NCBI GenBank assembly: GCA_937888955.1
Contig: CALAQW010000148.1
Location: 1-32,206, forward strand
Direction: 5' to 3'
Source: an uncultured Alphaproteobacteria bacterium
GTDB taxonomy: Bacteria > Pseudomonadota > Alphaproteobacteria > UBA11222
Length of the DNA stretch: 32,206 nt
Shown: piece by piece, positions 1,700-13,979 of the stretch
Layout of the letters: each line of letters begins with the position of its first letter
Position numbering within the stretch: position 1 is the stretch's first letter
Position numbers and translations under genes: made by a program
The notes under the pieces: model-generated
What the model saw: only the letters and a program-made list of their open reading frames with translations
Databases searched by the model: none
What the model was told of the DNA's origin: nothing

Positions 1700-1739
1700 A
1701 GGCGTCGTCCGGCTATTGAAAAGTTTGAGGAGAGTTCAG

Positions 1740-3008
1740 ATGAGTGATGCGGTGGTGATCAACAAGGCGGCGCCCGCGACAGATATTCCAGATCCCTATT
1801 CGATCCCGCTTTCCGACATCGATGTTTCGGGGGCGGAGTTATTCCGCGCCGACAAGCAGGACGCGTATTTCGAACGCCTGCGCCGCGAGGATCCTGTGCA
1901 TTACTGCGCTGACAGCCAATATGGCCCTTACTGGTCGGTGACGAAATTCAACGACATCGTGTATGTCGACACCCATCACCAGATCTATTCCTCCGATTCG
2001 CAGCTTGGCGGGGTGGTGATGCGCGGCCAGCCCGAAGAAACCGCGCTGCCCATGTTCATTGCCATGGACCCGCCAAAGCATGATGCCCAGCGCAAGGTGG
2101 TGCAGCCGATCGTCGCCCCGTCCAATCTGGCCAAGCTTGAAAGCACGATCCGCGAACGTGCGGGCCGCATTCTCGATTCCCTGCCGCGCAATGAAACTTT
2201 TAACTGGGTCGATCTGGTTTCCATCGAACTGACGACCCAGATGCTCGCGACCCTGTTCGATTTCCCGTTTGAGGATCGGCGCAAGCTCACCGAATGGTCC
2301 GATGCCGCAACCTCGGAAGAGGATGCGAAGACCCCCGAACTCGAAGAAGCGCGCCGCGCCAAGATCTTTGAATGCGCGGATTACTTCATGGGGCTGTGGA
2401 ACGAGCGGGTCAATGCGCGCGAGCCCGGTGGCGATCTGATCTCCATGCTGGCGCATGGGGAATCGACCCGTTACATGGATCGGGGCGAATTCATCGGCAA
2501 TCTGCTGCTGCTTATCGTGGGCGGTAACGATACCACCCGCAATTCAATCACCGGCGGCCTGCTTGCGCTTAATCAGAACCCGGATCAGTATCGGAAGCTG
2601 CGTGAAAATCACAAGCTGATCGAAACCATGGTGCCCGAAATCATTCGCTGGCAGACGCCGCTGACCCATATGCGGCGCACCGCGCTTGCCGATACCGAAC
2701 TTGGCGGCAAGCAGATCAAGAAGGGCGACAAGGTGATCATGTGGTACATCTCGGGCAACCGGGATGACGAGGTGATCCCCGATCCCTACAGCTTCATCAT
2801 CGATCGCAAGAACCCGCGGCAGCATCTGTCCTTCGGCTTTGGCATCCACCGTTGTGTGGGCAACCGGCTGGCGGAAATGCAACTGCGCATCATCTGGGAA
2901 GAGGCGATGAAACGCTTCGACTTTATCGAGGTGGTGGGCGATCCGGTGCGGACCAATTCCAACCTGATCCACGGCTATCTCGAACTGCCGGTGCGGATCG
3001 CAGGCTGA
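1740..3008 (+). CDS. Cytochrome P450, CYP153-like (alkane / fatty-acid terminal hydroxylase family)
   Basis: This is a soluble bacterial class I P450 of 422 residues. The I-helix oxygen-activation motif GGNDTT is at residues 261-266, an ExxR K-helix motif follows in EIIRW, and the heme loop FGFGIHRCVG has its thiolate Cys at 372. The GGNDTTRNS stretch, the IIRWQTPLTHMRRTA segment and the heme loop are typical of CYP153, whose characterised members hydroxylate the terminal carbon of medium-chain alkanes or fatty acids. Assignment to CYP153 is by recall of the family signature, not alignment. The ATG at 1740 follows a good GGAGAG ribosome site; an in-frame TTG at 1716 is less likely. CYP153 genes are often followed by ferredoxin and ferredoxin reductase genes, but neither is here, so redox partners must come from elsewhere. 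Confidence 0.92.
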   Translation: MSDAVVINKAAPATDIPDPYSIPLSDIDVSGAELFRADKQDAYFERLRREDPVHYCADSQYGPYWSVTKFNDIVYVDTHHQIYSSDSQLGGVVMRGQPEETALPMFIAMDPPKHDAQRKVVQPIVAPSNLAKLESTIRERAGRILDSLPRNETFNWVDLVSIELTTQMLATLFDFPFEDRRKLTEWSDAATSEEDAKTPELEEARRAKIFECADYFMGLWNERVNAREPGGDLISMLAHGESTRYMDRGEFIGNLLLLIVGGNDTTRNSITGGLLALNQNPDQYRKLRENHKLIETMVPEIIRWQTPLTHMRRTALADTELGGKQIKKGDKVIMWYISGNRDDEVIPDPYSFIIDRKNPRQHLSFGFGIHRCVGNRLAEMQLRIIWEEAMKRFDFIEVVGDPVRTNSNLIHGYLELPVRIAG

Positions 3009-3036
3009 GCTGCCCGCGCATTGCCGAATAGAAGCA

Positions 3037-3075
3037 ACGCCCGTCTTTTGCAATAAAGACGGGCGTTTTTCTTTT
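3037..3075 (+). terminator. Rho-independent terminator after the P450 gene
   Basis: A perfect 12-bp stem (ACGCCCGTCTTT at 3037-3048, complement at 3055-3066) encloses a 6-nt loop and is followed by TTTTCTTTT. It begins 28 bp after the P450 stop. The opposite strand lacks a comparable U-tract, so it mainly ends the plus-strand transcript before the convergent acyl-CoA synthetase gene. Confidence 0.9.
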
Positions 3076-3116
3076 GCCGGGGTAGGCGCTGGGTGTCGTT
3101 CTTTCCGCGCTCTGCT

Positions 3117-4745
3117 TCACGCCAGGCCCAGCGCGTCATGCGCTGCGGCCTTTGCCCATTTATAGTCGGCCTTGCCGTTGGGCGCGCGCTGCACCTTGTC
3201 CACCATCACCACATGTTTGGGCAGTTTGTAGCCCGCAAGCTTGTCGCGCAGGAAGGTGATCAGGTCTGCCTCGTCCAGTGTATCGCCAGGGCGTGGTGCG
3301 GCGACGGCAACCACCCGTTCGCCGAAGCGTTCGTCAGGCACCCCGACAACCAGACAGTCATAGATCGCGGGGTTGAGCTTGACCGCCTCCTCCACCTCTT
3401 CGGGAAAGATCTTCTCACCCGCGCTGTTGATGCAGACCGAACCGCGCCCAAGCAGGGTAATGCTGCCATCGGCTTCCACCGTTGCCCAGTCGCCGCCGAA
3501 GGTGTAGCGAACGCCATTCACGGTACGGAAGGTTTTCGCCGATTTTTCCGGATCCTTGTAGTAGCCGATGGGCACCACACCGCCCGTTGCGATCAGCCCC
3601 TTTTCGCCGGAGCCGGGCACCACTTCCTGATCATCCTCACTGAATACCTTCGTGGTATCGGCAAGTTCGAAACGGGCTGTGGCGGCCTTTGTCGCGCGGG
3701 TCATGACAGAGCGGCCCGTCGTCCCTTCGGTCGAGCCCATGGCGTCGATCAGCGTCATATCATGATGCGCAAGCAGCCGTTCCTTGACTTCCATCGTCCA
3801 CATCACGCCTGAGGAGACGATGAGTCTCAGGCTGGACAGATCGTGGGGCGTGCCGGCTGCCTTGGCGCGGTCGAGCGCATCGGCAAGCGGTTTGGCAAAT
3901 GCGTCGCCGACAATGACAAGATCGGTCGCGCCTGTCCGGGTCACCTCGGCCCACACCGCATCGGCATCGAAGTGCAGATTGGGCACCGTCACCGCGCAGC
4001 CGCCCACCGTCATCGGCCCCATCGCGCCCGCCCACATGCCCGTGCCATGCATCAGCGGGCAGGCGGTCAATGCGATGGGCAATTCACCATTTTGCGCCAT
4101 GCGTTTGATGTTGGCGGCCATTTCCGCTTCGCTTGCGGGGCGCGGCACATCGCGAAAGTCAAAGCCAAGCCGCATCAGCCGCATACATTGATCACGCTGG
4201 CTGTACATCACCCCTTTCGGCATGCCGGTGGTGCCGCCGGTATAGAGCATATAGATCTCGTCTTCCGAACGGTCCCTGCGCGGCATTGGATCGCCGCTAT
4301 TCAGGAAAGCCTCATAGTCGACCGCGCCGTCAAGCAGCGGCGCCTCCCCGTCATCCACCTGCACAAGCAGCTTGAGTTTGGGCAGCTGCCCGCGCACCCT
4401 GTCGATCCGTTCGGCAAGCCGGCCATGAAACAGCACCGCCTCGCTATCGCTATTGTCGAGCAGATAGCGCAGCTCCTCATCCAGATAGCGGTAATTCACA
4501 TTGATGGGGGAGGCGCTCATCTTGAAGGCGGCGAAATGCGCCTCGGTATATTCGGCGCAATTGTAAAGATAATGTCCGATCTTCGAATCCGGGCCGAGCC
4601 CCGCCGCGGCAAAAGCGCTGGCAAGCTGCGCCGCACGCCGGTCGAATTCGGCCCAGCTGCGCCGCGTTTGCGCATGGATAAGCGCGGGATGATCGGGCAC
4701 CGTATCGGCCACAATCTCCCAAAGTGATGCCAGATGCATGCGCAT
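3117..4745 (-). CDS. Acyl-CoA synthetase (AMP-forming, FadD-like)
   Basis: This ANL-superfamily ligase activates a carboxylic acid as acyl-AMP and then forms the CoA thioester. The 542-residue product has the phosphate-binding motif YTGGTTGMPKG at 168-178, the GDW and GRGSVCINSAGEKIFPEEVE region of the hinge and C-terminal domain, and NGKADY near the end with the predicted adenylation Lys at 525. The architecture is closest to FadD-type enzymes acting on fatty or cyclic/steroid-side-chain acids; chain length cannot be read from sequence. The ATG at 4745 follows a good GGGGAGAG site; a second ATG lies two codons on. It converges on the P450 gene, and its substrate could be the acid made by further oxidation of a P450 product, which is inference. 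Confidence 0.92.
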   Translation of the reverse strand: MRMHLASLWEIVADTVPDHPALIHAQTRRSWAEFDRRAAQLASAFAAAGLGPDSKIGHYLYNCAEYTEAHFAAFKMSASPINVNYRYLDEELRYLLDNSDSEAVLFHGRLAERIDRVRGQLPKLKLLVQVDDGEAPLLDGAVDYEAFLNSGDPMPRRDRSEDEIYMLYTGGTTGMPKGVMYSQRDQCMRLMRLGFDFRDVPRPASEAEMAANIKRMAQNGELPIALTACPLMHGTGMWAGAMGPMTVGGCAVTVPNLHFDADAVWAEVTRTGATDLVIVGDAFAKPLADALDRAKAAGTPHDLSSLRLIVSSGVMWTMEVKERLLAHHDMTLIDAMGSTEGTTGRSVMTRATKAATARFELADTTKVFSEDDQEVVPGSGEKGLIATGGVVPIGYYKDPEKSAKTFRTVNGVRYTFGGDWATVEADGSITLLGRGSVCINSAGEKIFPEEVEEAVKLNPAIYDCLVVGVPDERFGERVVAVAAPRPGDTLDEADLITFLRDKLAGYKLPKHVVMVDKVQRAPNGKADYKWAKAAAHDALGLA

Positions 4746-4914
4746 GGCCGTGTCTCTCCCCTGTTTGCTTGTTTTTATGCGCTATTCGATAGCACAGGCG
4801 CGGCGCAAGGTGAATGTCGCCGCCGCGCTACCGTCAGGAAAGAGTGTTGCGAACATGGCTGTCGACAGGATTTAATGAGCCACGCGCTGAAAAAGGGGCA
4901 GAAGAGGGTTGGGG

Positions 4915-6012
4915 ATGACAAACAGGTTTTTGCGGTTCGGTTTGGTGTCGGGCCTGTTATGTGCGGCGTTGCTTGCGTCTGCGCCGCGGGCGGAGGCCTT
5001 TGTCGGCGGGTTCAAGGTGCGTATGACCCTGTCGCTGGTGGTGGACGGGGCGCCGGTGGAGATCGTCCGCACCTATAAATGCGGCGGGGCCGGGCGACTG
5101 TTCAACGATTATGTGGGGGCGCATCGGCTGAAATATATTTTTCATGAACTGCCTAATGGCGCGGCCATCGCGGTCGATCTGCTCGGCAATAATTATTGTT
5201 ACCGGGACCGGATGCCCAGCGAATATTCCCCGCCGATTTCGTGGGAATGGCCCAGCCTGCTTTATCTTGAGAATGCGGATATCGAACAGGCGAAATATTT
5301 TGAAACCTATGAAACAAATTATACGGAGGGATATTCGTTCGGCGGTCATATCGATATGACGAAGTCGCGCATGCGGCTTGAGGAGGTGGGGCGGTTTTCC
5401 GCCACCTCCGACAATGTGCCGCAACCGCTTTATGACCGGCTCAAAAGGATATTTCACCATCAGTACAAATTCATACCGAACCCGGATTATCCATTCCGGG
5501 CATTGCTTTTTTTTGCGTATCCGCATGCGAAATGGCGGCATATTGAGCCGTTGAACAGTTTTCTGCTGTCGCTGGACAAGCCGACCCTGCTGCTCCCCTC
5601 CATGCCCGCGGTTGCGCCGCTTTATGCGAAGAAGCTCAAATCGCCCGAGCCCTCTTTGAGAGGGGTGCCGGGGGCATCGCCCTTCACCTACGGGTCGAGA
5701 GGTACTGATCCGAAATTCCATAACCTTTCGGGCACTGACCGCCCAAATGTATTCATGACCAGCCTTTCCTATAAGGGGGACGGAATTTGGGCCTATGACG
5801 GGGTGAGGCGACATGTGTACCGCTATTTCCGGATCGAGGACGGGCTGGACAAGCTGAAACCTTTCCCGATCATCGAATTTCTGGGGGAACGTGTCGACAC
5901 GTCCGGGGTGCGCGAAAGTTTCCGGGAGAACCCGATGATCTGGTTCTATGACCCGGCACAAAAATACATGTTCAATATTTCACAGCGGAACCGGCAACAG
6001 TTTTATTATTGA
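4915..6012 (+). CDS. Secreted protein of unknown function
   Basis: I do not recognise this family. The 365-residue product starts with a clear Sec signal peptide (residues 1-28, predicted cleavage after APRAEA), so the mature protein should be periplasmic or exported. The mature chain is rich in aromatic residues and has two cysteines, Cys56 and Cys95, that could form a disulfide. It contains no membrane segment after the signal. The ATG at 4915 has a purine-rich GAGGG site just upstream; an in-frame TTG two codons earlier is less likely. The stop overlaps or closely precedes the next gene, so the two are probably one operon. Bases 5804-5886, encoding RRHVYRYF and what follows near the C-terminus, recur almost unchanged at 7208-7291. 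Codon use is more AT-rich in places than in neighbouring genes. Confidence 0.75.
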   Translation: MTNRFLRFGLVSGLLCAALLASAPRAEAFVGGFKVRMTLSLVVDGAPVEIVRTYKCGGAGRLFNDYVGAHRLKYIFHELPNGAAIAVDLLGNNYCYRDRMPSEYSPPISWEWPSLLYLENADIEQAKYFETYETNYTEGYSFGGHIDMTKSRMRLEEVGRFSATSDNVPQPLYDRLKRIFHHQYKFIPNPDYPFRALLFFAYPHAKWRHIEPLNSFLLSLDKPTLLLPSMPAVAPLYAKKLKSPEPSLRGVPGASPFTYGSRGTDPKFHNLSGTDRPNVFMTSLSYKGDGIWAYDGVRRHVYRYFRIEDGLDKLKPFPIIEFLGERVDTSGVRESFRENPMIWFYDPAQKYMFNISQRNRQQFYY

Positions 6013-6014
6013 TG

Positions 6015-6039
6015 TGGGGCAACGCCCCTATCCGGCGGG
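6015..6039. repeat. Short repeat shared with 7287-7311
   Basis: The segment starting TGGGGCAACGCCCCT just after the secreted-protein stop recurs at 7287-7311 with a few mismatches, in both cases followed by a C/G-rich stretch. It contains a small hairpin, GGGGC-AAC-GCCCC. In the second copy it directly follows the remnant of the secreted-protein gene. This suggests that the duplicated unit included the 3' end of that gene and its downstream flank, with an internal deletion. Confidence 0.5.
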
Positions 6040-6074
6040 GTCGCGTATCTGGCAAGTGTATGGGGGCAGAAGGG

Positions 6075-7049
6075 ATGTTCTGGAAGCGTAAAACAACAAG
6101 CGTCACCCCTGATCCCGCCACGCTCCCGCCGGTCAGCTCGATCGACGCGAAGGCCGCCTACCGCGCGCGGGTGGGGCGGCTGACCCGGGTGGTCTTTTTC
6201 GCCTTTCAATATATGCCGCTCACCATTGTCTACTGGCTGATGGCGGGAACTGCATTTGTGGGCGAGACGCTGGAGTGTGCCCTGATTACCGTCGGTGTCG
6301 TTGGCGATTTGCTGCGATTCAGGTTTGCGCCCGATCTGAAGGTGCCACTCGAGAGCTGGGTTGATCTCTATTACGATGAATGGGACGCGAAGGCTGAACA
6401 TGCTTTCTCACGCTGGTATTGCGGCTGGGAGAAACCGGTCATTATCGGCAGTTCCATTTACATCGTTATTTTCTTCCTACTCGATCTGCTGCTGCCCGCC
6501 GGTATTCTAACTGCCTATACCGCTCTTTTTGCACCTCTGCACGACTGGATGCAGGCGCATCTTGCTATCGCCGGGCGGCACAGCGCCGATTTGATCGCGC
6601 ATGGTTATGCGCAACGCATCCCGTTTCTGATTCATGTCGAAACGGTTGCGGCGCTCATCATGATGAGTGTCCCGTTCCTGATCGGCGTTGGCGGTAACAC
6701 GTGGCAGATACTGTATTTGAAGAAATTTTACCAGACAGATAAGGATGCGAATTCTTATCGCGAATCATTAAAGAAAACAGGTAAAATAGAATTTTTTTTC
6801 ATGATGAAATTTTCTATTATTGTTATTATTTTAGCAACAACAATGGTGTTGTTTCAAAATATTAGCTTTGATGGGTGTTCTGCTCGGGCTTATTGCCCGC
6901 ATATTAGGAGTTCTGGAGTACTAATATTCTTTTTTATTTGTCCATTTGCCACTTTGTTTTGTTTAAGCCAATTATTGATCGCCCGGTGCTCAACTTTTGC
7001 ATTTTCGGTTCGTGTTGAGCAGGAACGTCTGGCTGTAAATGGGGGCTGA
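6075..7049 (+). CDS. Polytopic membrane protein of unknown function
   Basis: I do not recognise this family. The product (324 residues from the ATG at 6075) has about five or six hydrophobic segments: one or two near the N-terminus (VVFFAFQYMPLTIVYWLMAG and onward), PVIIGSSIYIVIFFLLDLLL, IPFLIHVETVAALIMMSVPF, FFMMKFSIIVIILATTMVLF, and a last one near SGVLIFFFICPFATLFCL. The start is uncertain. ATGs at 6012 (overlapping the previous stop as TGATG) and 6060 are in frame. I prefer 6075 because 6015-6039 recurs downstream as flanking DNA and a GGGGG run lies at a usable distance. The last third, from about 6720, is strikingly AT-rich compared with the rest of the window, suggesting foreign origin or a recent exchange. 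It probably works with the preceding secreted protein. Confidence 0.7.
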   Translation: MFWKRKTTSVTPDPATLPPVSSIDAKAAYRARVGRLTRVVFFAFQYMPLTIVYWLMAGTAFVGETLECALITVGVVGDLLRFRFAPDLKVPLESWVDLYYDEWDAKAEHAFSRWYCGWEKPVIIGSSIYIVIFFLLDLLLPAGILTAYTALFAPLHDWMQAHLAIAGRHSADLIAHGYAQRIPFLIHVETVAALIMMSVPFLIGVGGNTWQILYLKKFYQTDKDANSYRESLKKTGKIEFFFMMKFSIIVIILATTMVLFQNISFDGCSARAYCPHIRSSGVLIFFFICPFATLFCLSQLLIARCSTFAFSVRVEQERLAVNGG

Positions 7050-7207
7050 AATATCAGGTGACCAATCAGGTAATCAAACTGTTGCAAACGGAATAACCGG
7101 TGCTTGCACTTTGCCAGATATTTCAGTCGCAAATCCTCCTTTACTGCAGCAGCGGGAACGCGCTCTTGCCACTGAGCTTCACGTGCCAGGGGATTGGCGA
7201 AAACGGA

Positions 7208-7311
7208 TGCGGCGGCATGTGTACCGCTATTTCCGGATCGGGGACGGGCTGGACAAGCTGAAAACTTTCCCCGATCATCGAATTTCTGGGGCAACGCCCC
7301 TGTCGGGCGGG
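7208..7311 (+). pseudogene. Decayed duplicate of the 3' end of the secreted-protein gene
   Basis: Bases 7208-7291 match 5804-5886 with only a few substitutions and one inserted C in a CCCC run. In frame it first reads RHVYRYFRIGDGLDKLK, then shifts out of the parental frame at the insertion. It then joins directly to a copy of the flank found at 6015-6039, so the last part of the gene has been deleted. An open frame starting at the ATG at 7039, which overlaps the stop of the membrane-protein gene, runs through the remnant and on into the antisense of the BVMO gene. I doubt this is a real gene, though a short coupled peptide cannot be excluded. The rest of the 314-bp gap 7050-7363 shows nothing I can identify. 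Confidence 0.7.
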
Positions 7312-7363
7312 CGCGCGGCCATGATTGGCGCGCGCACCCCGCCGGATGCGGGATTTGGCGGCG

Positions 7364-8833
7364 TCAGGCCGCCTCGAAATCCTGAAGTGCCGGAGCGCTC
7401 AGATCTTCCTCGAATTTGGCGAAGGTCCAGGGCCAGGAGGCGACATTGCCGAAGCGGTCATAATACCAGCTCTGGCAGCCGCCCGATGCCCAGACGGTTT
7501 GCGGCATGGCGTCCTTGATCGACTGATTGAATGCTGCGGTGACGTCGGCCTTGGGCGTGACCTCTTCAAGTTTGCCCTCGCGCAGCAGGCCGATCAGCTT
7601 TTCGATATAGCCGAATTGGCGTTCCGCCGTCATCAGATAGGAGAAGTTGCCGATCGGGCTGTTCGGACCGCCAAGGAAGAACAGGTTGGGGAAGTTCGGC
7701 ACACAGATGGTCTTGTAGGCGTAATTGCCTTGTGACCATGCCTCGTTCAGGGTTTGCCCGTTGCGGCCCACCACCTCGGCATCGGCGAGGAAGCGGTGCG
7801 GGTCAAAGCCTGTGCACAGTACCAGCACGTCAAGCGCGTGCAGGCGGCCATCCCTGGTGCGCACACCTTCGGGTTCGATGCTTTCGATCGCGTCGGTCAC
7901 AAGCTCTGCATTGGGTTTCTGGATCGCGGGATAGAAGCGATCAGACATGATCAGCCGCTTGCAGCCGGCCGAATAATCGGGCTGCAGCTTCGCGCGCAGT
8001 TCGGGATCCTGCACGCCCTGGTCAAGGCTCTGCTGGCAGCCTTCCTGGATCTTCTCCAGCGCCATCGCATTATCGCCGACGATGGCGGCCGCAAAGCCGT
8101 GATTCATCGTCGCGGCAAGCTGGTCATACATGGCGGACATTTCTTCGGGATGCGCCCGGTAATGCGCCTTGTCCTCTTCCGCCACGGGCAGGTTCGGCGC
8201 ATTCATCACCCATTGCGGGGTGCGCTGGAACATCGACAGATGCGCCACATCATCGACGATCGCGCCGACGATCTGCACCGCGGTCGAGCCGGTGCCGATG
8301 ATGCCGACGCGTTTGCCCTTGAGCGACACGTCATGGTTCCAGCGCGCACTGTGGAAACAATCGCCCTTGAAACTGTCGAGCCCCGGAATATCGGGATAGA
8401 CCGGGTGGTGCAGGATGCCGACCGCGCTCACCACCACATCGAATTCACCCTGATCGCCCTGGGTCGTGGTGACGCGCCAGCGCTTGTTGTTATATTCGAG
8501 TTTGGTAACCTCGCTGTTATAGCGGATCATCTCTTCGGCATTATTGTCTTCGGCCACCTTGCGGACATAGGCATAGATTTCCGAACCGGGCGAAAAGGTC
8601 TGGCTCCAGTCCGGGTTGGGCGCGAAGGAGAAGCGGTAAAGATGCGAGGGTACGTCGCAGACAAGCCCGGGATAGGTATTGTCGCGCCAGGTGCCGCCAA
8701 GATCGGCCGCTTTTTCGAACAGGACGACTTTCTTGATGCCCGAATCGCGTAATTTGATCGCCGACATGATGCCGCCCGCGCCCGCGCCGATGATTGCGAC
8801 GCTCAATTCCCGTTTATCCGCCATGCCACTCAT
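7364..8833 (-). CDS. Flavin-containing monooxygenase, type I Baeyer-Villiger type
   Basis: BVMOs use FAD and NADPH to insert oxygen next to a ketone, giving an ester or lactone. The 489-residue product has an N-terminal FAD Rossmann motif GAGAGG (16-21), GGTWRDNTYPG (46-56), the BVMO fingerprint FxGxxxHxxxW at 155-165 (followed by Asn where Pro or Asp is usual), and a second NADPH-binding Rossmann motif GTGSTA (180-185). The length is at the short end for the family. Starts are possible at 8833 and at the ATG three codons later (8824). The GAGAGG site is rather close for the first and rather far for the second. The gene stands alone on its strand, with possible operator elements upstream at 8850-8902. 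The ketone substrate is unknown. Confidence 0.92.
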   Translation of the reverse strand: MSGMADKRELSVAIIGAGAGGIMSAIKLRDSGIKKVVLFEKAADLGGTWRDNTYPGLVCDVPSHLYRFSFAPNPDWSQTFSPGSEIYAYVRKVAEDNNAEEMIRYNSEVTKLEYNNKRWRVTTTQGDQGEFDVVVSAVGILHHPVYPDIPGLDSFKGDCFHSARWNHDVSLKGKRVGIIGTGSTAVQIVGAIVDDVAHLSMFQRTPQWVMNAPNLPVAEEDKAHYRAHPEEMSAMYDQLAATMNHGFAAAIVGDNAMALEKIQEGCQQSLDQGVQDPELRAKLQPDYSAGCKRLIMSDRFYPAIQKPNAELVTDAIESIEPEGVRTRDGRLHALDVLVLCTGFDPHRFLADAEVVGRNGQTLNEAWSQGNYAYKTICVPNFPNLFFLGGPNSPIGNFSYLMTAERQFGYIEKLIGLLREGKLEEVTPKADVTAAFNQSIKDAMPQTVWASGGCQSWYYDRFGNVASWPWTFAKFEEDLSAPALQDFEAA

Positions 8834-8849
8834 TTCCTCTCACTGACAA

Positions 8850-8902
8850 CGCTATGTCCTGCGCTATGTGCTGCAAAGGGTTTGTCTAACTATGATCATA
8901 GT
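8850..8902 (-). promoter_or_regulatory. Palindrome and tandem repeat upstream of the BVMO gene
   Basis: Two elements lie in the 131-bp gap between the BVMO start and the end of mobA. A perfect 14-bp palindrome, ACTATGATCATAGT, is at 8889-8902. A tandem 12-bp direct repeat (CGCTATGTCCTG / CGCTATGTGCTG, one mismatch) is at 8850-8873. Both precede only the BVMO gene, since mobA is transcribed toward this gap. They fit operator sites for a dimeric regulator, but no regulator gene is nearby. Confidence 0.45.
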
Positions 8903-8964
8903 CTTGTAGCGGCTTTGCCCCAATCGCGCAATTTGCCGCAGACCGGCATGCGCTGATCGCGGGT

Positions 8965-9615
8965 TCAGCCTTGCTGTGCCGCGATTGTTTGGGCCCGGGC
9001 CAGATCTTCGGGGCGGTTGATATTGAAGAAGGGGTCATGCGGGGTATCGGGACATACCGCATGGGCGATGCCATGCCGCGCGGTCCAGATATCGACCTTG
9101 CGGATATCTTCTTCGGTCATGGCGCGGCGCAGATCGCCGGCCAGCTCCACAGGCCATAATCCGAATACCGGGTGCGTCCGCCCGCCCGAGCTTGCACAGG
9201 CAAGCGGTACATGCGCCGCCTTGCGCGCGGCCGACAGCCGGGGGACGAGATCGCGCGGGAAGAACGGCGCATCGGTCGCGAAGGTTGCAATCGTGGCACA
9301 GTCGGGGCGGTGCGCGCGCGCCCATTCCATACCGCTCAGCACCCCGGCCAGCGGTCCGGCATGTCCGTCGATGACATCAGGCACCACGGGCAGGTCATAG
9401 GCCGCAAATCGGGCGCGATCGCCATTGGCATTCAGGATCAGAACATCCACCTGCGGCCGCGCCCGCGCGATGGCGTGGGCAAGCAGCGTTTTCCCGCCCA
9501 GCATCTGCAGGCATTTATCGCCGCCGCCCATGCGCCGCGACTGACCGCCCGCCAGCAGGACGCCGACGATGGGCTCACGGGTCGCGGGCATCATCGTCGC
9601 TCGCTTCGTCATCAT
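8965..9615 (-). CDS. mobA: Molybdenum cofactor guanylyltransferase MobA
   Basis: MobA transfers GMP from GTP to molybdopterin-Mo, giving the MGD cofactor needed by DMSO-reductase-family enzymes such as the formate dehydrogenase in this window. The nucleotidyltransferase signature LAGGQSRRMGGGDK is at residues 21-34 of 216, and the length fits. It overlaps the 3' end of fdhD by up to 41 bp. In-frame ATGs at 9594 and 9591 would shorten the overlap and are plausible starts. It is the last gene of the fdhD-mobA unit. Confidence 0.92.
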   Translation of the reverse strand: MMTKRATMMPATREPIVGVLLAGGQSRRMGGGDKCLQMLGGKTLLAHAIARARPQVDVLILNANGDRARFAAYDLPVVPDVIDGHAGPLAGVLSGMEWARAHRPDCATIATFATDAPFFPRDLVPRLSAARKAAHVPLACASSGGRTHPVFGLWPVELAGDLRRAMTEEDIRKVDIWTARHGIAHAVCPDTPHDPFFNINRPEDLARAQTIAAQQG

Positions 9616-10456
9616 CGAAGATGATCCGCTGTTCCCCCGACAGGGCCATGAAGCGCTTGCCCCGCGCCCGCCCGATCAGCGTCAGCCCGGCGAGCCGCGC
9701 CAGCTCCACCCCCCAGGCGGTGAAGCCTGAACGCGAAATCAGGATCGGAATATTCATCAGCACGGTCTTGATGACCATTTCGCTGGTCAGCCGCCCTGTG
9801 GTGTAGAGAATCTTGCCCTCGGCGGGCATGTCATGGCGCAGCATATAGCCCGCGATCTTGTCCACCGCATTGTGCCGGCCGACATCTTCCATGAAGATCA
9901 GCGGGCGGTCCCTCTCGCACAGCACGGTGCCATGGATGGCGCCGGCGGTAAGATACAGGCTCGGCAGCCGGTTGATCTGATTGGTCAGCGCATAAAGCCA
10001 GGAGGTTTTGAGCAGCGCGTCCTCGGGCAGCGCCGCCTTCTCGAAATGTTCCATGACGTCGCCGAACACCGTCCCCACCGCGCAACCCGAGGTGCGGACC
10101 TTCTTTTTCAGCTTTTCCTCATAGTCGGTTTCGCGGGCCGTGCGCACGACGACGACATTGACCTCCTCGTCATATTCCACCTCGGTGATCTCGTCATCAG
10201 GCAGCAGCATGTTCTGATTTTTCAGATAGCCAAGGGCGAGATATTCCGGATGATCGCCGATCGTCATCAGGGTCACGATCTCCTGACTGTTCAGATAAAG
10301 CGTCAGGGCGCGTTCGGTCACCACCCGTGTTTCGATTCGCTGGCCGGTATGATCGATGCCTGTGACCGGCCGGGTCAGCCACGGGTCATCGGGGTCTGGC
10401 CCAAGAATAAGGCTCGGTTGTGCGGCATGGTCTGGCGTTTTGCGCCTGTCGGTCAT
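9575..10456 (-). CDS. fdhD: Formate dehydrogenase accessory sulfurtransferase FdhD
   Basis: FdhD passes sulfur from a cysteine desulfurase to the Mo-bisMGD cofactor, making apo-formate dehydrogenase active. The 293-residue product has the conserved EDVGRHNAVDK (190-200) and YTTGRLTSEM segments. At the sulfur-carrying loop it reads SGCAVGTVFGD, with a single Cys at 125 where E. coli FdhD has a CxxC pair. The ATG at 10456 follows an AAGGCAAGGA ribosome site. The reading frame stays open 47 codons upstream, but that stretch overlaps the divergent mobB gene and does not look like FdhD. Only 34 bp separate it from mobB, so the two divergent promoters must overlap or lie inside each other's gene. 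Confidence 0.95.
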   Translation of the reverse strand: MTDRRKTPDHAAQPSLILGPDPDDPWLTRPVTGIDHTGQRIETRVVTERALTLYLNSQEIVTLMTIGDHPEYLALGYLKNQNMLLPDDEITEVEYDEEVNVVVVRTARETDYEEKLKKKVRTSGCAVGTVFGDVMEHFEKAALPEDALLKTSWLYALTNQINRLPSLYLTAGAIHGTVLCERDRPLIFMEDVGRHNAVDKIAGYMLRHDMPAEGKILYTTGRLTSEMVIKTVLMNIPILISRSGFTAWGVELARLAGLTLIGRARGKRFMALSGEQRIIFDDDEASDDDARDP

Positions 10457-10490
10457 ATCCTTGCCTTCCGGTAAGCGAGTGGGTGAGGCG

Positions 10491-10994
10491 ATGAAAATAT
10501 TCGGGATCGTTGGCTGGAAGAATAGCGGAAAAACCACCCTTGTCGTAGGGCTGGTCAAAGAGTTGAGCGCGCGTGGCCATCGGGTGTCCACAATCAAGCA
10601 CGCGCATCACGCATTCGACGTCGACCAGCCGGGCAAGGACAGTTTCCTGCATCGTGAGGCTGGCGCGAAGGAGGTGATGATCTCATCGGCGGGGCGCTGG
10701 GCCCTGATGCATGAGAACAGGGATGCGCCCGAGCCTGATCTGGATGCGTTGCTGAGCCATATGTCGGATGTCGATATCGTGCTTGTCGAAGGCTTCAAGA
10801 AGGGCAGTCACGAAAAGCTTGAAATCAGGCTGAGCGAAAAGGGCGCGCCGATTTTGGCCGAGCAGGACGAGCAGGTGGTGGCCTTTGCCTGCGATGGTGG
10901 CGAATGGTTGCCCGATTTGCCACGCTTTGCCCATGATGATGTTACGGGAATTGCCGATTTTATCGAGAAACGCTACGGGCTCGGCCAATGGTAG
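10491..10994 (+). CDS. mobB: Molybdopterin-guanine dinucleotide biosynthesis adaptor MobB
   Basis: MobB is a small P-loop GTP-binding protein that assists MobA in MGD formation. The 167-residue product starts MKIFGIVGWKNSGKTTL, with the Walker A motif at residues 8-15, followed by STIKHAHH, typical of the family. The ATG at 10491 is preceded by GTGAGG, close but usable. The open frame extends upstream into fdhD antisense and is discounted. Its end overlaps moeA by 7 bp, so mobB and moeA are translationally coupled. It begins the plus-strand operon that ends with the formate dehydrogenase genes. Confidence 0.93.
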   Translation: MKIFGIVGWKNSGKTTLVVGLVKELSARGHRVSTIKHAHHAFDVDQPGKDSFLHREAGAKEVMISSAGRWALMHENRDAPEPDLDALLSHMSDVDIVLVEGFKKGSHEKLEIRLSEKGAPILAEQDEQVVAFACDGGEWLPDLPRFAHDDVTGIADFIEKRYGLGQW

Positions 10995-12250
10995 CGGTGC
11001 TTGAGGATGATTGCTTCGCCACGGGGCCGGAACGGATCCGTGCTGATGAGGCATTGCGACTGCTGCGCGCGCGGCTCAATTGCATTGTCGATGTGGAAAC
11101 AGTGCCGCTCGGGGCGGCATGCGGGCGGATTCTCGCGCAGGATCTGGTGGCCGAACGCAATATTCCCAACGCGGATAACAGCGCGGTCGATGGCTATGCG
11201 CTGCGTGCCGCCGATCTTGCCGAGGGGGGGGAAATCCGATTGCCGGTGGTCATGCGGGTGGCGGCCGGCGATCCGCCGCCCGGGCTGCTGCAAGTGGGGG
11301 CGGTCGCGCGTATCTTTACAGGTGCCCCGATGCCTGAAGGCGCAGACTGCGTTGTCATGCAGGAAGATGTGATGGCGGATGACGATCATGTCATCATCCC
11401 GCATGGTTTGCGTGCGGGCGCCAACCGCCGGCTTGCCGGAGAAGATCTGAAAAAGGGTGAGGTTGCGCTGCGGGCGGGGAGCGTCTTGCGGCCGCAGCAT
11501 ATCGGTCTGGCTGCCGCGCTTGGCCATGCGCAACTGCGGGTGTTCGCGCCGCTGCACATCGCGCTTTTCTCATCGGGGGATGAGTTGTGCGAACCTGGCG
11601 GCCCGCTTGCGCCGGGCGGTGCATTTGATGTGAACCGTTATCTGTTGTCCGCGCTTCTGGGCGATCGCGGCGTGATCGTAAGCGATCTGGGGATATTGCC
11701 TGATAATCCGCGCAAGGTGCACAGCGCCTTGCGGGTTGCCGCGCGGCAAAATCATGTTGTCATGACATCAGGCGGCGCATCGGTCGGGGATGAGGATCAT
11801 ATCGTGCGCGCGGTCAGTGATCTGGGTGCGCTGCATTTCTGGTCGATTGCGGTCAAGCCCGGGCGGCCGCTCGCCTTTGGCCGGCTGGGTGATGCGGTAT
11901 TTATCGGCCTGCCGGGCAATCCGGTGGCCGCGATGGTCTGTTTTCTGATGTTTGTGCGGCCTGTCTTGCGGCTTCTGGGGGGCGGCAGCTGGTGTGAACC
12001 GCGCGGCTATGCCTTGCGGGCGGATTTCGATTTCACGAAAAAACCGGGCCGGCTTGAGTGGCTGCGTGGTAGTGTGGTGGACAGTCCGGACGGCCAGACC
12101 GTTGTGCGGCGTTTCGCGCGACAGGGATCGGGCATTATCACGGGATTGACCGCTTCTGACGGGCTGATCGAATTGCGCGAAAATGTCACGCGCGTGGCGC
12201 AGGGGGAATTGGTAAAATTCATTCCTTTCACTGAGCTTGGCGTGGTGTGA
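10988..12250 (+). CDS. moeA: Molybdopterin molybdenumtransferase MoeA
   Basis: MoeA inserts molybdate into adenylylated molybdopterin. The 420-residue product shows the expected order: NSAVDGYA (64-71; many members have SAMDGYA), FTGAPMPEGADCVVMQE, SSGDEL, TSGGASVGD (260-268), PGRPLAFG and GLPGNP (307-312), then the C-terminal MoeA domain IV. It overlaps mobB by 7 bp and is followed after 22 bp by fdhB. This placement suggests supply of cofactor to the formate dehydrogenase; whether it is the only moeA in the genome is unknown. Insertion of tungsten instead of molybdenum cannot be ruled out from sequence. Confidence 0.95.
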   Translation: MVAVLEDDCFATGPERIRADEALRLLRARLNCIVDVETVPLGAACGRILAQDLVAERNIPNADNSAVDGYALRAADLAEGGEIRLPVVMRVAAGDPPPGLLQVGAVARIFTGAPMPEGADCVVMQEDVMADDDHVIIPHGLRAGANRRLAGEDLKKGEVALRAGSVLRPQHIGLAAALGHAQLRVFAPLHIALFSSGDELCEPGGPLAPGGAFDVNRYLLSALLGDRGVIVSDLGILPDNPRKVHSALRVAARQNHVVMTSGGASVGDEDHIVRAVSDLGALHFWSIAVKPGRPLAFGRLGDAVFIGLPGNPVAAMVCFLMFVRPVLRLLGGGSWCEPRGYALRADFDFTKKPGRLEWLRGSVVDSPDGQTVVRRFARQGSGIITGLTASDGLIELRENVTRVAQGELVKFIPFTELGVV

Positions 12251-12272
12251 ACGGATAAGGGCCAGTTGAGCG

Positions 12273-13979
12273 ATGAGCGATAATGCGCAGACCGCAGCAC
12301 CTGAAGGTGGCAAGAGGCGCGGCCGGTTTGGCCCGCGTGGCCGTCAGGTCACAGCGCAAGCGCGCCACGACATTCGGCTTTTGCTTGGCGATGCATCGCG
12401 GTCGCGCGATCTGCTGATCGAGCATTTGCATCTTGTTCAGGATCAGTTCGGCGCGATTTCGGCGGCGCATCTCGCGGCGCTTGCCGAGGAGATGCACCTG
12501 CCGATGGCGGAAGTCTATGAGGTTGCGACCTTTTATGCGCATTTCGATGTGCTGCGCGAGGCGGAGGCGCCGCCACCGCCCGTCACTGTGCGGGTATGTG
12601 AAAGTCTGAGTTGCTGTCTTGCCGGGGCGGATGCGCTGCACGACCGGCTTGCCGAGGAAGCCTGGCCCGATGTGCGGGTGCTGCGCGCGCCCTGCATGGG
12701 ACATTGCAATTTCGCGCCTGCCGTCAAAGTCGGGCAACGCTTCGTCGATCACGCCGATTTTGAACAGATTCAGGAGCTTGTGGCCAAAAAGCGGACACAT
12801 CCGGTACTGCCGCGCTTCCAGACGTTCGAGGCTTATGAGGCGGAGGGCGGCTATCACATGCTGCGCGAATGCCGCGCCGGCGAAGTCTCGGCCGCGCAGC
12901 TGATCGCCGATCTGCACGCATCGGGGTTGCGCGGGCTCGGCGGTGCCGGGTTTCCGACAGCACGGAAATGGGAGTTTGTGCGTGCGGAACCCGGGCCGCG
13001 CTATGTGGTGATGAATGCGGATGAGGGGGAGCCTGGGACATTCAAGGACAGGCTGTTTCTCGAGACGACGCCGCATCGGGTACTCGAAGGGTTGCTGCTC
13101 GCGGCCTGGGCTGTCGAGGCGGCCGCCGCCTATATCTATCTGCGTGATGAATATCCGGCGGCGCGCAATATATTGATGCGCGAGATTGCCTGGCTGGAGC
13201 ATGAGGGGCTTGTGCCGGCGGGCTATATCCACCTGCGGCGCGGTGCGGGTGCTTATATTTGCGGTGAGGAATCGGCGATGCTCGAAAGTATCGAGGGCAA
13301 GCGCGGGCTGCCGCGTCACCGACCGCCCTTTGCCGCGCAGGTCGGTCTGTTCGGACGGCCCACCCTTATCCAGAATGTGGAAACGCTGTATTGGCTGCCG
13401 GAGATTTTCGCGCAAGAACCCGAAGTCTTCGCGCAAAAGGGAGTGAACGGTTATCAGGGGCTGCGTGCCTTTTCGGTGTCGGGGCGGGTGGCTGAACCCG
13501 GTGTCAAGATCGCGCCTAACGGCATCACGCTCAATGAACTGATCGCGCAACATTGTGGTGGTATGGCGGCGGGGCACCGGCTGAAGGCATTTTTGCCGGG
13601 CGGCCCCTCGGGCGGCATCCTGCCTGCGGCGAAAGCCGATACCCCGCTCGGTTTCGGGGCGTTCGATGCGGAAGGCTGCTTTGTCGGTTCGGGTGCTGTC
13701 ATCGTGTTATCGGATCGCGACGATTTACGGATTGTCGCGCGCAATCTCTTGCATTTCTTCGCCGAGGAAAGCTGCGGGCAGTGCACCCCCTGCCGCGTCG
13801 GAACCGAAAAGTTGCTCGCTCTCACCGCAGCGCCGGAATGGGATGCGGGGTTGATGCGCGAGATTGCGACGGCGATGGCGGATGCGTCGATTTGCGGGCT
13901 GGGGCAAGCGGCGGCAAATCCGCTTTCCTGCCTGATGCGCTTTTTTCCGGAAGCGGCGCCAACCGGGGAGGGGGCATGA
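12273..13979 (+). CDS. NAD-dependent formate dehydrogenase beta subunit (NuoE-NuoF fusion)
   Basis: This 568-residue subunit takes electrons from the alpha subunit and reduces NAD+ in the cytoplasm. The N-terminal NuoE-like domain has [2Fe-2S] ligands Cys109, Cys114, Cys141 and Cys145. The NuoF-like domain follows, with the FMN/NADH loop RGLGGAGFPT around 220-229 and the [4Fe-4S] ligands Cys501, Cys504, Cys507 and Cys541 (SCGQCTPC...SICG). Fusion of the two domains matches the beta subunit of Methylobacterium FDH1, rather than the separate FdsG and FdsB of Rhodobacter and Cupriavidus. It is followed by the alpha-subunit gene with a 4-bp ATGA overlap. The ribosome site before the ATG is weak (TTGAGCG), and no nearer alternative start is clearly better. 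Confidence 0.95.
   Translation: MSDNAQTAAPEGGKRRGRFGPRGRQVTAQARHDIRLLLGDASRSRDLLIEHLHLVQDQFGAISAAHLAALAEEMHLPMAEVYEVATFYAHFDVLREAEAPPPPVTVRVCESLSCCLAGADALHDRLAEEAWPDVRVLRAPCMGHCNFAPAVKVGQRFVDHADFEQIQELVAKKRTHPVLPRFQTFEAYEAEGGYHMLRECRAGEVSAAQLIADLHASGLRGLGGAGFPTARKWEFVRAEPGPRYVVMNADEGEPGTFKDRLFLETTPHRVLEGLLLAAWAVEAAAAYIYLRDEYPAARNILMREIAWLEHEGLVPAGYIHLRRGAGAYICGEESAMLESIEGKRGLPRHRPPFAAQVGLFGRPTLIQNVETLYWLPEIFAQEPEVFAQKGVNGYQGLRAFSVSGRVAEPGVKIAPNGITLNELIAQHCGGMAAGHRLKAFLPGGPSGGILPAAKADTPLGFGAFDAEGCFVGSGAVIVLSDRDDLRIVARNLLHFFAEESCGQCTPCRVGTEKLLALTAAPEWDAGLMREIATAMADASICGLGQAAANPLSCLMRFFPEAAPTGEGA

Follow-up and report, generated by a model that had tools for sequence, protein, structure and literature searches.

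A small, probably acquired island of an uncultured alphaproteobacterium with two orphan genes for putative envelope proteins and the decayed remnant of a partial duplication

Three kinds of described systems come closest to the locus considered here. In CDI/Rhs loci, orphan CT modules consist of common sequence up to a junction; beyond it the C-terminus differs, and a cognate immunity gene is usually present (PMC3150448). The present locus lies in a 32,206-nucleotide stretch (the window) of contig CALAQW010000148.1 from an uncultured alphaproteobacterium. It resembles CDI/Rhs loci in having a partial 3' copy downstream of an intact gene with a partner; however, it has no large delivery protein, alternative C-terminus or second immunity gene, and its fragment is frameshifted and lacks the last 42 codons of gene 1. 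With small lineage-specific genomic islands that carry orphan genes it shares sharp edges against an empty site, atypical composition and near relatives without homologs, the difference being that no mobility gene or attachment site was recognised in 4824–7357. The third is a membrane protein encoded on Azospirillum brasilense megaplasmids (L008:4773–5723, NZ_CP012915.1; L009:4815–5723, NZ_CP059450.1). This protein has in common with gene 2 the motif AHGYAxRxPxxxH, the C-terminal D..R.Y..H region, an accessory position and a lower GC content in the last third, but it occupies by itself a 1.06-kb slot that is flanked by AspA-like and TetR genes, and lacks the Cys pair of D-x-C..CPH, gene 1 and the downstream fragment.

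Overall, the locus looks like an ordinary kind of accessory DNA, two orphan genes, probably for envelope proteins, with a decayed partial duplicate. The initial annotation had described a two-gene island of no known family with such a duplicate, which stands, and had speculated on a C-terminal-diversifying toxin system, which finds no support. The following features define the island and its surroundings.

3117..4745, minus strand: left neighbour, AMP-binding (acyl-CoA ligase-like) gene; G001 protein 95% identical
4824..7357, no strand: lineage-specific island, without counterpart at the syntenic locus of the same-genus genome G001 (about 95–97 bp there)
4915..6012, plus strand: gene 1, 365-aa exported protein with a Sec signal peptide; no known family
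6060..7049, plus strand: gene 2, 329-aa polytopic membrane protein with about 5–6 TM regions; alternative start ATG at 6075
7364..8833, minus strand: right neighbour, flavin monooxygenase (FMO/BVMO-like) gene; G001 protein 92% identical

A DNA search of the family genomes (five family-mates) was carried out with window 1700–12300 as the query. Window segments 1715–4823 and 7358–12296 map to G001:C17:30303–27164 and 27066–22143 with strand and order preserved, so that about 2.53 kb here (4824–7357) stand against about 95–97 bp in G001; a loose alignment extends the left edge to about 4840. The order of the NADK, P450, ligase, BVMO, MobA, FdhD, MobB and MoeA genes is identical in G001, with proteins 81–96% identical. 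In three sister-genus genomes (G002, G004 and G005; loci L014, L017 and L025) the ligase gene is directly beside mobA, without gene 1, gene 2 or the BVMO gene between them, and genes 1 and 2 are absent throughout the five family-mates searched. The empty site in G001, together with three further family-mates that lack the island, identifies 4824–7357 in the assembled sequence as a lineage-specific insertion between the ligase and BVMO genes, which are direct neighbours in G001. By parsimony over these few genomes, a gain in this lineage would be preferred to several losses. The estimated contamination of the assembly is 5.7%; a contaminant contig is unlikely, given that the two flanks agree in order with those of a single genus-mate. 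At the island ends and within 4824–7357 the search for an integrase ORF, a tRNA, terminal repeats or a clear target duplication gave none.

The ligase-mobA interval (window 3117–9615) appears to grow stepwise, from ligase-mobA in the sister genus through ligase-BVMO-mobA in G001 to ligase-island-BVMO-mobA here, and it may be a site of repeated insertion. A second acyl-CoA-ligase-like gene in the same genome, L034 (G000:C149:21964–23531), is 74% identical in DNA to 3117–4745; G001:C19 has one too.

The two ORFs are placed as the initial annotation had them (4915–6012 and 6060–7049), and its statement that neither belongs to a recognised family agrees with the absence of any Pfam, NCBIfam or PADLOC domain. 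For both genes the codon-usage score is best of six in their own coding frame. The gene 1 signal peptide ends in AEA before F, with cleavage likely after A28, leaving a mature part of about 337 aa with two cysteines, Cys56 and Cys95. No Pfam, NCBIfam or PADLOC domain of the profile libraries was found in gene 1, and no homologs in PDB sequences, 385 genomes of the class, plasmids, phages, IMG/VR or one GTDB scan, the last being a pattern scan that also overlooked the Azospirillum relatives of gene 2, so that its negatives are weak. AlphaFold models from single sequences of the two products reached a mean pLDDT of 32 and 48 and were useless.

Gene 2 shows hydropathy peaks at about 44–62, 123–158, 186–214, 240–272 and 281–317. 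Between its last two TM regions lies the motif D-x-C-x(2)-R-x-[YF]-C-P-H, common to a paralog at a contig edge (L033:3–464, that is C30:3–464; 25% identity, E 1e-7). Gene 2 is also 27% identical over about 230 residues to the protein of the Azospirillum brasilense megaplasmids (E 1e-6). Its scores against the C30 and Azospirillum sequences were 119 and 156, the maxima of hydropathy-preserving shuffles being 72 and 80 (0/300 each). Gene 2 links the family, since the C30 paralog and the Azospirillum relatives have no direct match to each other. Nothing similar to gene 2 was found in phages, IMG/VR or the GTDB scan. Weak profile matches in G381 and G673 proved to be chance, being an out-of-gene stretch with stops and NuoA.

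The C30 paralog adjoins a copper-ATPase gene, and the similarity to G001 ends at the ATPase stop codon, beyond which the next gene in G001 is acyl-CoA dehydrogenase-like. The paralog thus sits where G001 similarity ends, which was counted in favour of acquired accessory DNA. The contig begins inside the paralog; its 5' half and its upstream neighbour are absent from the assembly. On these comparisons the gene 2 family emerges as sparse and mobile-looking, with single occurrences in accessory positions.

Does the pair act together? Gene 1 and gene 2 are on the same strand with a gap of 47 bp, and this order and spacing only suggest joint action. The alternative, that two unrelated orphan genes are adjacent by chance and have no joint function, comes a little short of an even chance. 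It agrees with the absence of gene 1 beside the Azospirillum relatives of gene 2 (3/3), with the lack of gene 1 relatives and with a GC-rich palindrome at 6016–6028, possibly a terminator, between the two genes. The only gene 2 relative with intact context is unpaired, which was counted against joint action. The common strand, the 47-bp gap and the shared island speak the other way, and the context of the C30 paralog ends at the contig start. This alternative does not compete with the reading that we favour, acquired accessory envelope genes with partial-duplication debris, as the probabilities given to the two are non-exclusive: the favoured reading concerns origin and anatomy, and chance adjacency concerns joint action only.

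The downstream repeat involves the following features.

6015..6045, plus strand: region 3' of gene 1 that serves as the reference for the flank repeat, with the perfect palindrome GGGGC-AAC-GCCCC at 6016–6028
7046..7126, plus strand: imperfect palindrome directly behind gene 2, with 13-nt arms CTGAAATATCAGG / CCAGATATTTCAG; folding z = -2.4, better than 197/200 shuffles
7205..7296, plus strand: decayed copy of gene 1 codons 296–324, 92% identical to 5801–5891, frameshifted by a one-base insertion
7287..7317, plus strand: flank repeat, 87% identical to 6015–6045 behind gene 1, joined to the fragment by a probable deletion

The initial annotation had noticed that 7208–7291 repeats 5804–5886 with a one-base insertion and then continues as a copy of the flank at 6015–6039, and the alignment confirms this at 92% and 87% for the two parts. 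Segment 5801–5867 corresponds to 7205–7271 at 93%; after one inserted C, 5857–5891 corresponds to 7262–7296, and the copy then jumps to 6015–6045. The Smith-Waterman score of the repeat is 147, the shuffles giving 15.2 +/- 2.3 (0/300), and its E value in a whole-genome search is 1e-31. No further copies exist in the 3.0-Mb genome or among the hits of the wider region in the five family-mates. A dispersed repeat, which would have spoken against the initial annotation, is ruled out, as the only copies are those inside the window. A wider duplication around the repeat is likewise ruled out since the similarity ends at its edges: 7050–7204 is unlike gene 1 upstream of 5801, and 7318–7363 is unlike 6046–6300. 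Of the earlier view that the locus was duplicated in tandem and one copy largely deleted, the decayed partial duplicate remains, but a whole-locus duplication goes beyond the data: the copy comprises no more than about 90 bp from the 3' region of gene 1 and about 30 bp of flank, and none of gene 2.

The jump from 5891 to 6015 falls at a 9/10-bp microhomology (TGGGGgAACG / TGGGGcAACG), and the copy has no counterpart of 5892–6014, which suggests that a microhomology deletion may have removed it. The copied codons have undergone three replacements (V to M, E to G, P to T) and two silent changes besides the frameshift. These comparisons identify 7205–7317 as non-functional debris, copied in part from the end of gene 1 and its flank. 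The palindrome at 7046–7126 could be either a terminator or a remnant. A GC-rich hairpin spans window 7288–7350, behind the stop codon of the BVMO gene (minus strand, z = -2.2); it takes in the flank copy together with 12 bp of 6030–6041 in inverted orientation.

The composition of the island is unlike that of the host, moderately so for gene 1. Gene 1 has 54% GC and gene 2 49.5%, the neighbours 58–62%; the corresponding GC3 values are 0.66 and 0.55 vs about 0.73–0.76. GC is low relative to the neighbours in both hosts, the present genome and Azospirillum. Within the island one further feature stands out.

6708..7145, plus strand: AT-rich segment (36.5% GC, preceding sequence 57%) comprising the final third of gene 2 together with its 3' flank

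Codon 225 of gene 2 marks a fall in GC3 from 0.67 to 0.30 (z = 6.3, 0/1000 permutations), the strongest change among 22 window genes tested. One could read gene 2 as recombinant, its last third being derived, like 7050–7145, from an AT-rich donor and the gene 1 scrap marking the recombination joint. The strength of the change point, which exceeds those of the 21 other genes, speaks for such an event. Against it, GC3 goes down in the Azospirillum homologs as well, from 0.66 to 0.46 in one and from 0.63 to 0.46 in the other, near the corresponding place (z = 3.2 and 2.7), with GC3 near 0.9 in the other genes of that host, and the protein homology to the C30 and Azospirillum sequences crosses the boundary. 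The recombinant origin is unlikely. Because the Azospirillum homologs show the drop near the corresponding place, the break is probably ancient or inherent in the family, and a C-terminal swap of gene 2 was dropped as the simplest reading of it. The case illustrates a trap: an abrupt intragenic GC break mimicked tail swapping until remote homologs turned out to have it too.

A somewhat weaker candidate still is the toxin system, in which gene 1 would be an exported toxin, gene 2 its membrane immunity protein and the orphan 3' fragment a relic of C-terminal exchange; we regard it as unlikely. An exported gene is followed by a membrane gene in an accessory island, the 3' fragment lies behind an intact gene, and there is a GC break within gene 2. 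The signal peptide and the hydropathy profile do place an exported product beside a polytopic membrane protein; such an arrangement of neighbours is common to many other pairs. The fragment itself argues against exchange since, unlike CDI/Rhs orphans, it has neither a different C-terminus nor an immunity gene of its own. After 7205–7296 comes no alternative C-terminus but the repeated 3' flank of gene 1 itself and then the BVMO end, and no immunity gene stands behind the orphan, the next gene being BVMO on the opposite strand, which ends at 7364, within 50–70 bp. Gene 1, at 365 aa and with a signal peptide only, lacks the build of a large or modular protein that joins a conserved trafficking N-terminal part to a toxic C-terminus of variable sequence. 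The Pfam, NCBIfam and PADLOC searches gave no domain, the gene 2 relatives are unpaired, and the GC break is found also in the Azospirillum relatives. The C-terminal-diversifying, polymorphic-toxin-like role on which the initial annotation speculated is thus not supported: the fragment is frameshifted, stops short of the final 42 codons and brings neither a replacement C-terminus nor a second partner gene. Homologs that are single, unpaired and free of fragments had been named beforehand as evidence against that role; the gene 2 homologs in Azospirillum are of this kind in 3/3 cases, and for gene 1 no homologs were found. A pair of exported toxin and membrane immunity protein that does without any tail swapping has a slim probability.

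Acquired accessory envelope genes, a lineage-specific insertion accompanied by partial-duplication debris, remain the likely explanation, rather than a tail-swapping toxin system. The insertion puts about 2.5 kb in place of about 95 bp and carries the genes for an exported and a polytopic inner-membrane protein. The scrap at 7205–7317 may have arisen from a short duplication, or may be an older gene 1 end displaced when gene 2 was acquired; the microhomology deletion and decay of the copy would have followed. The products could act in the envelope, that of gene 1 in the periplasm or outside the cell, that of gene 2 in the inner membrane. Dispensable accessory functions, perhaps in defence or competition, are hinted at faintly by the neighbourhood of a remote relative. 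In this way a real, datable event, an insertion with an empty site and then a small decayed duplication, can be told apart from a toxin reading that is attractive but lacks support.

There is also the idea that gene 2 represents an undescribed accessory membrane family moving between small intergenic slots in Alphaproteobacteria, here with an exported partner as an envelope defence or competition module absent from PADLOC; we would give it little credence.

The variable slot in Azospirillum counts in favour of the accessory reading preferred here. This slot (L008:4765–5826, with AspA-like/TetR flanks) has space for the gene 2 relative only. Judged by comparison of the slots, the gene 2 relatives are cargo of a variable slot in Azospirillum, and the neighbours found in that slot hint at a possible defence role. 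Variable slots of such a kind house many other functions too. If the gene 2 family should be defence cargo, the AspA-TetR slot of Azospirillum would be the natural place for a test, as the cargo differs by strain. Comparison of the slot extended to L037, L038 and L039. The same AspA-like/TetR flanks (95–97% identical) hold another ORF in A. brasilense MTCC4039 and A. argentinense Az39, and the MTCC4039 slot also has an RTX-repeat ORF. The TSH58 slot contains a transposase-like ORF and a pair matching the PADLOC candidates PDC-M30A and PDC-M30B, a candidate defence pair.
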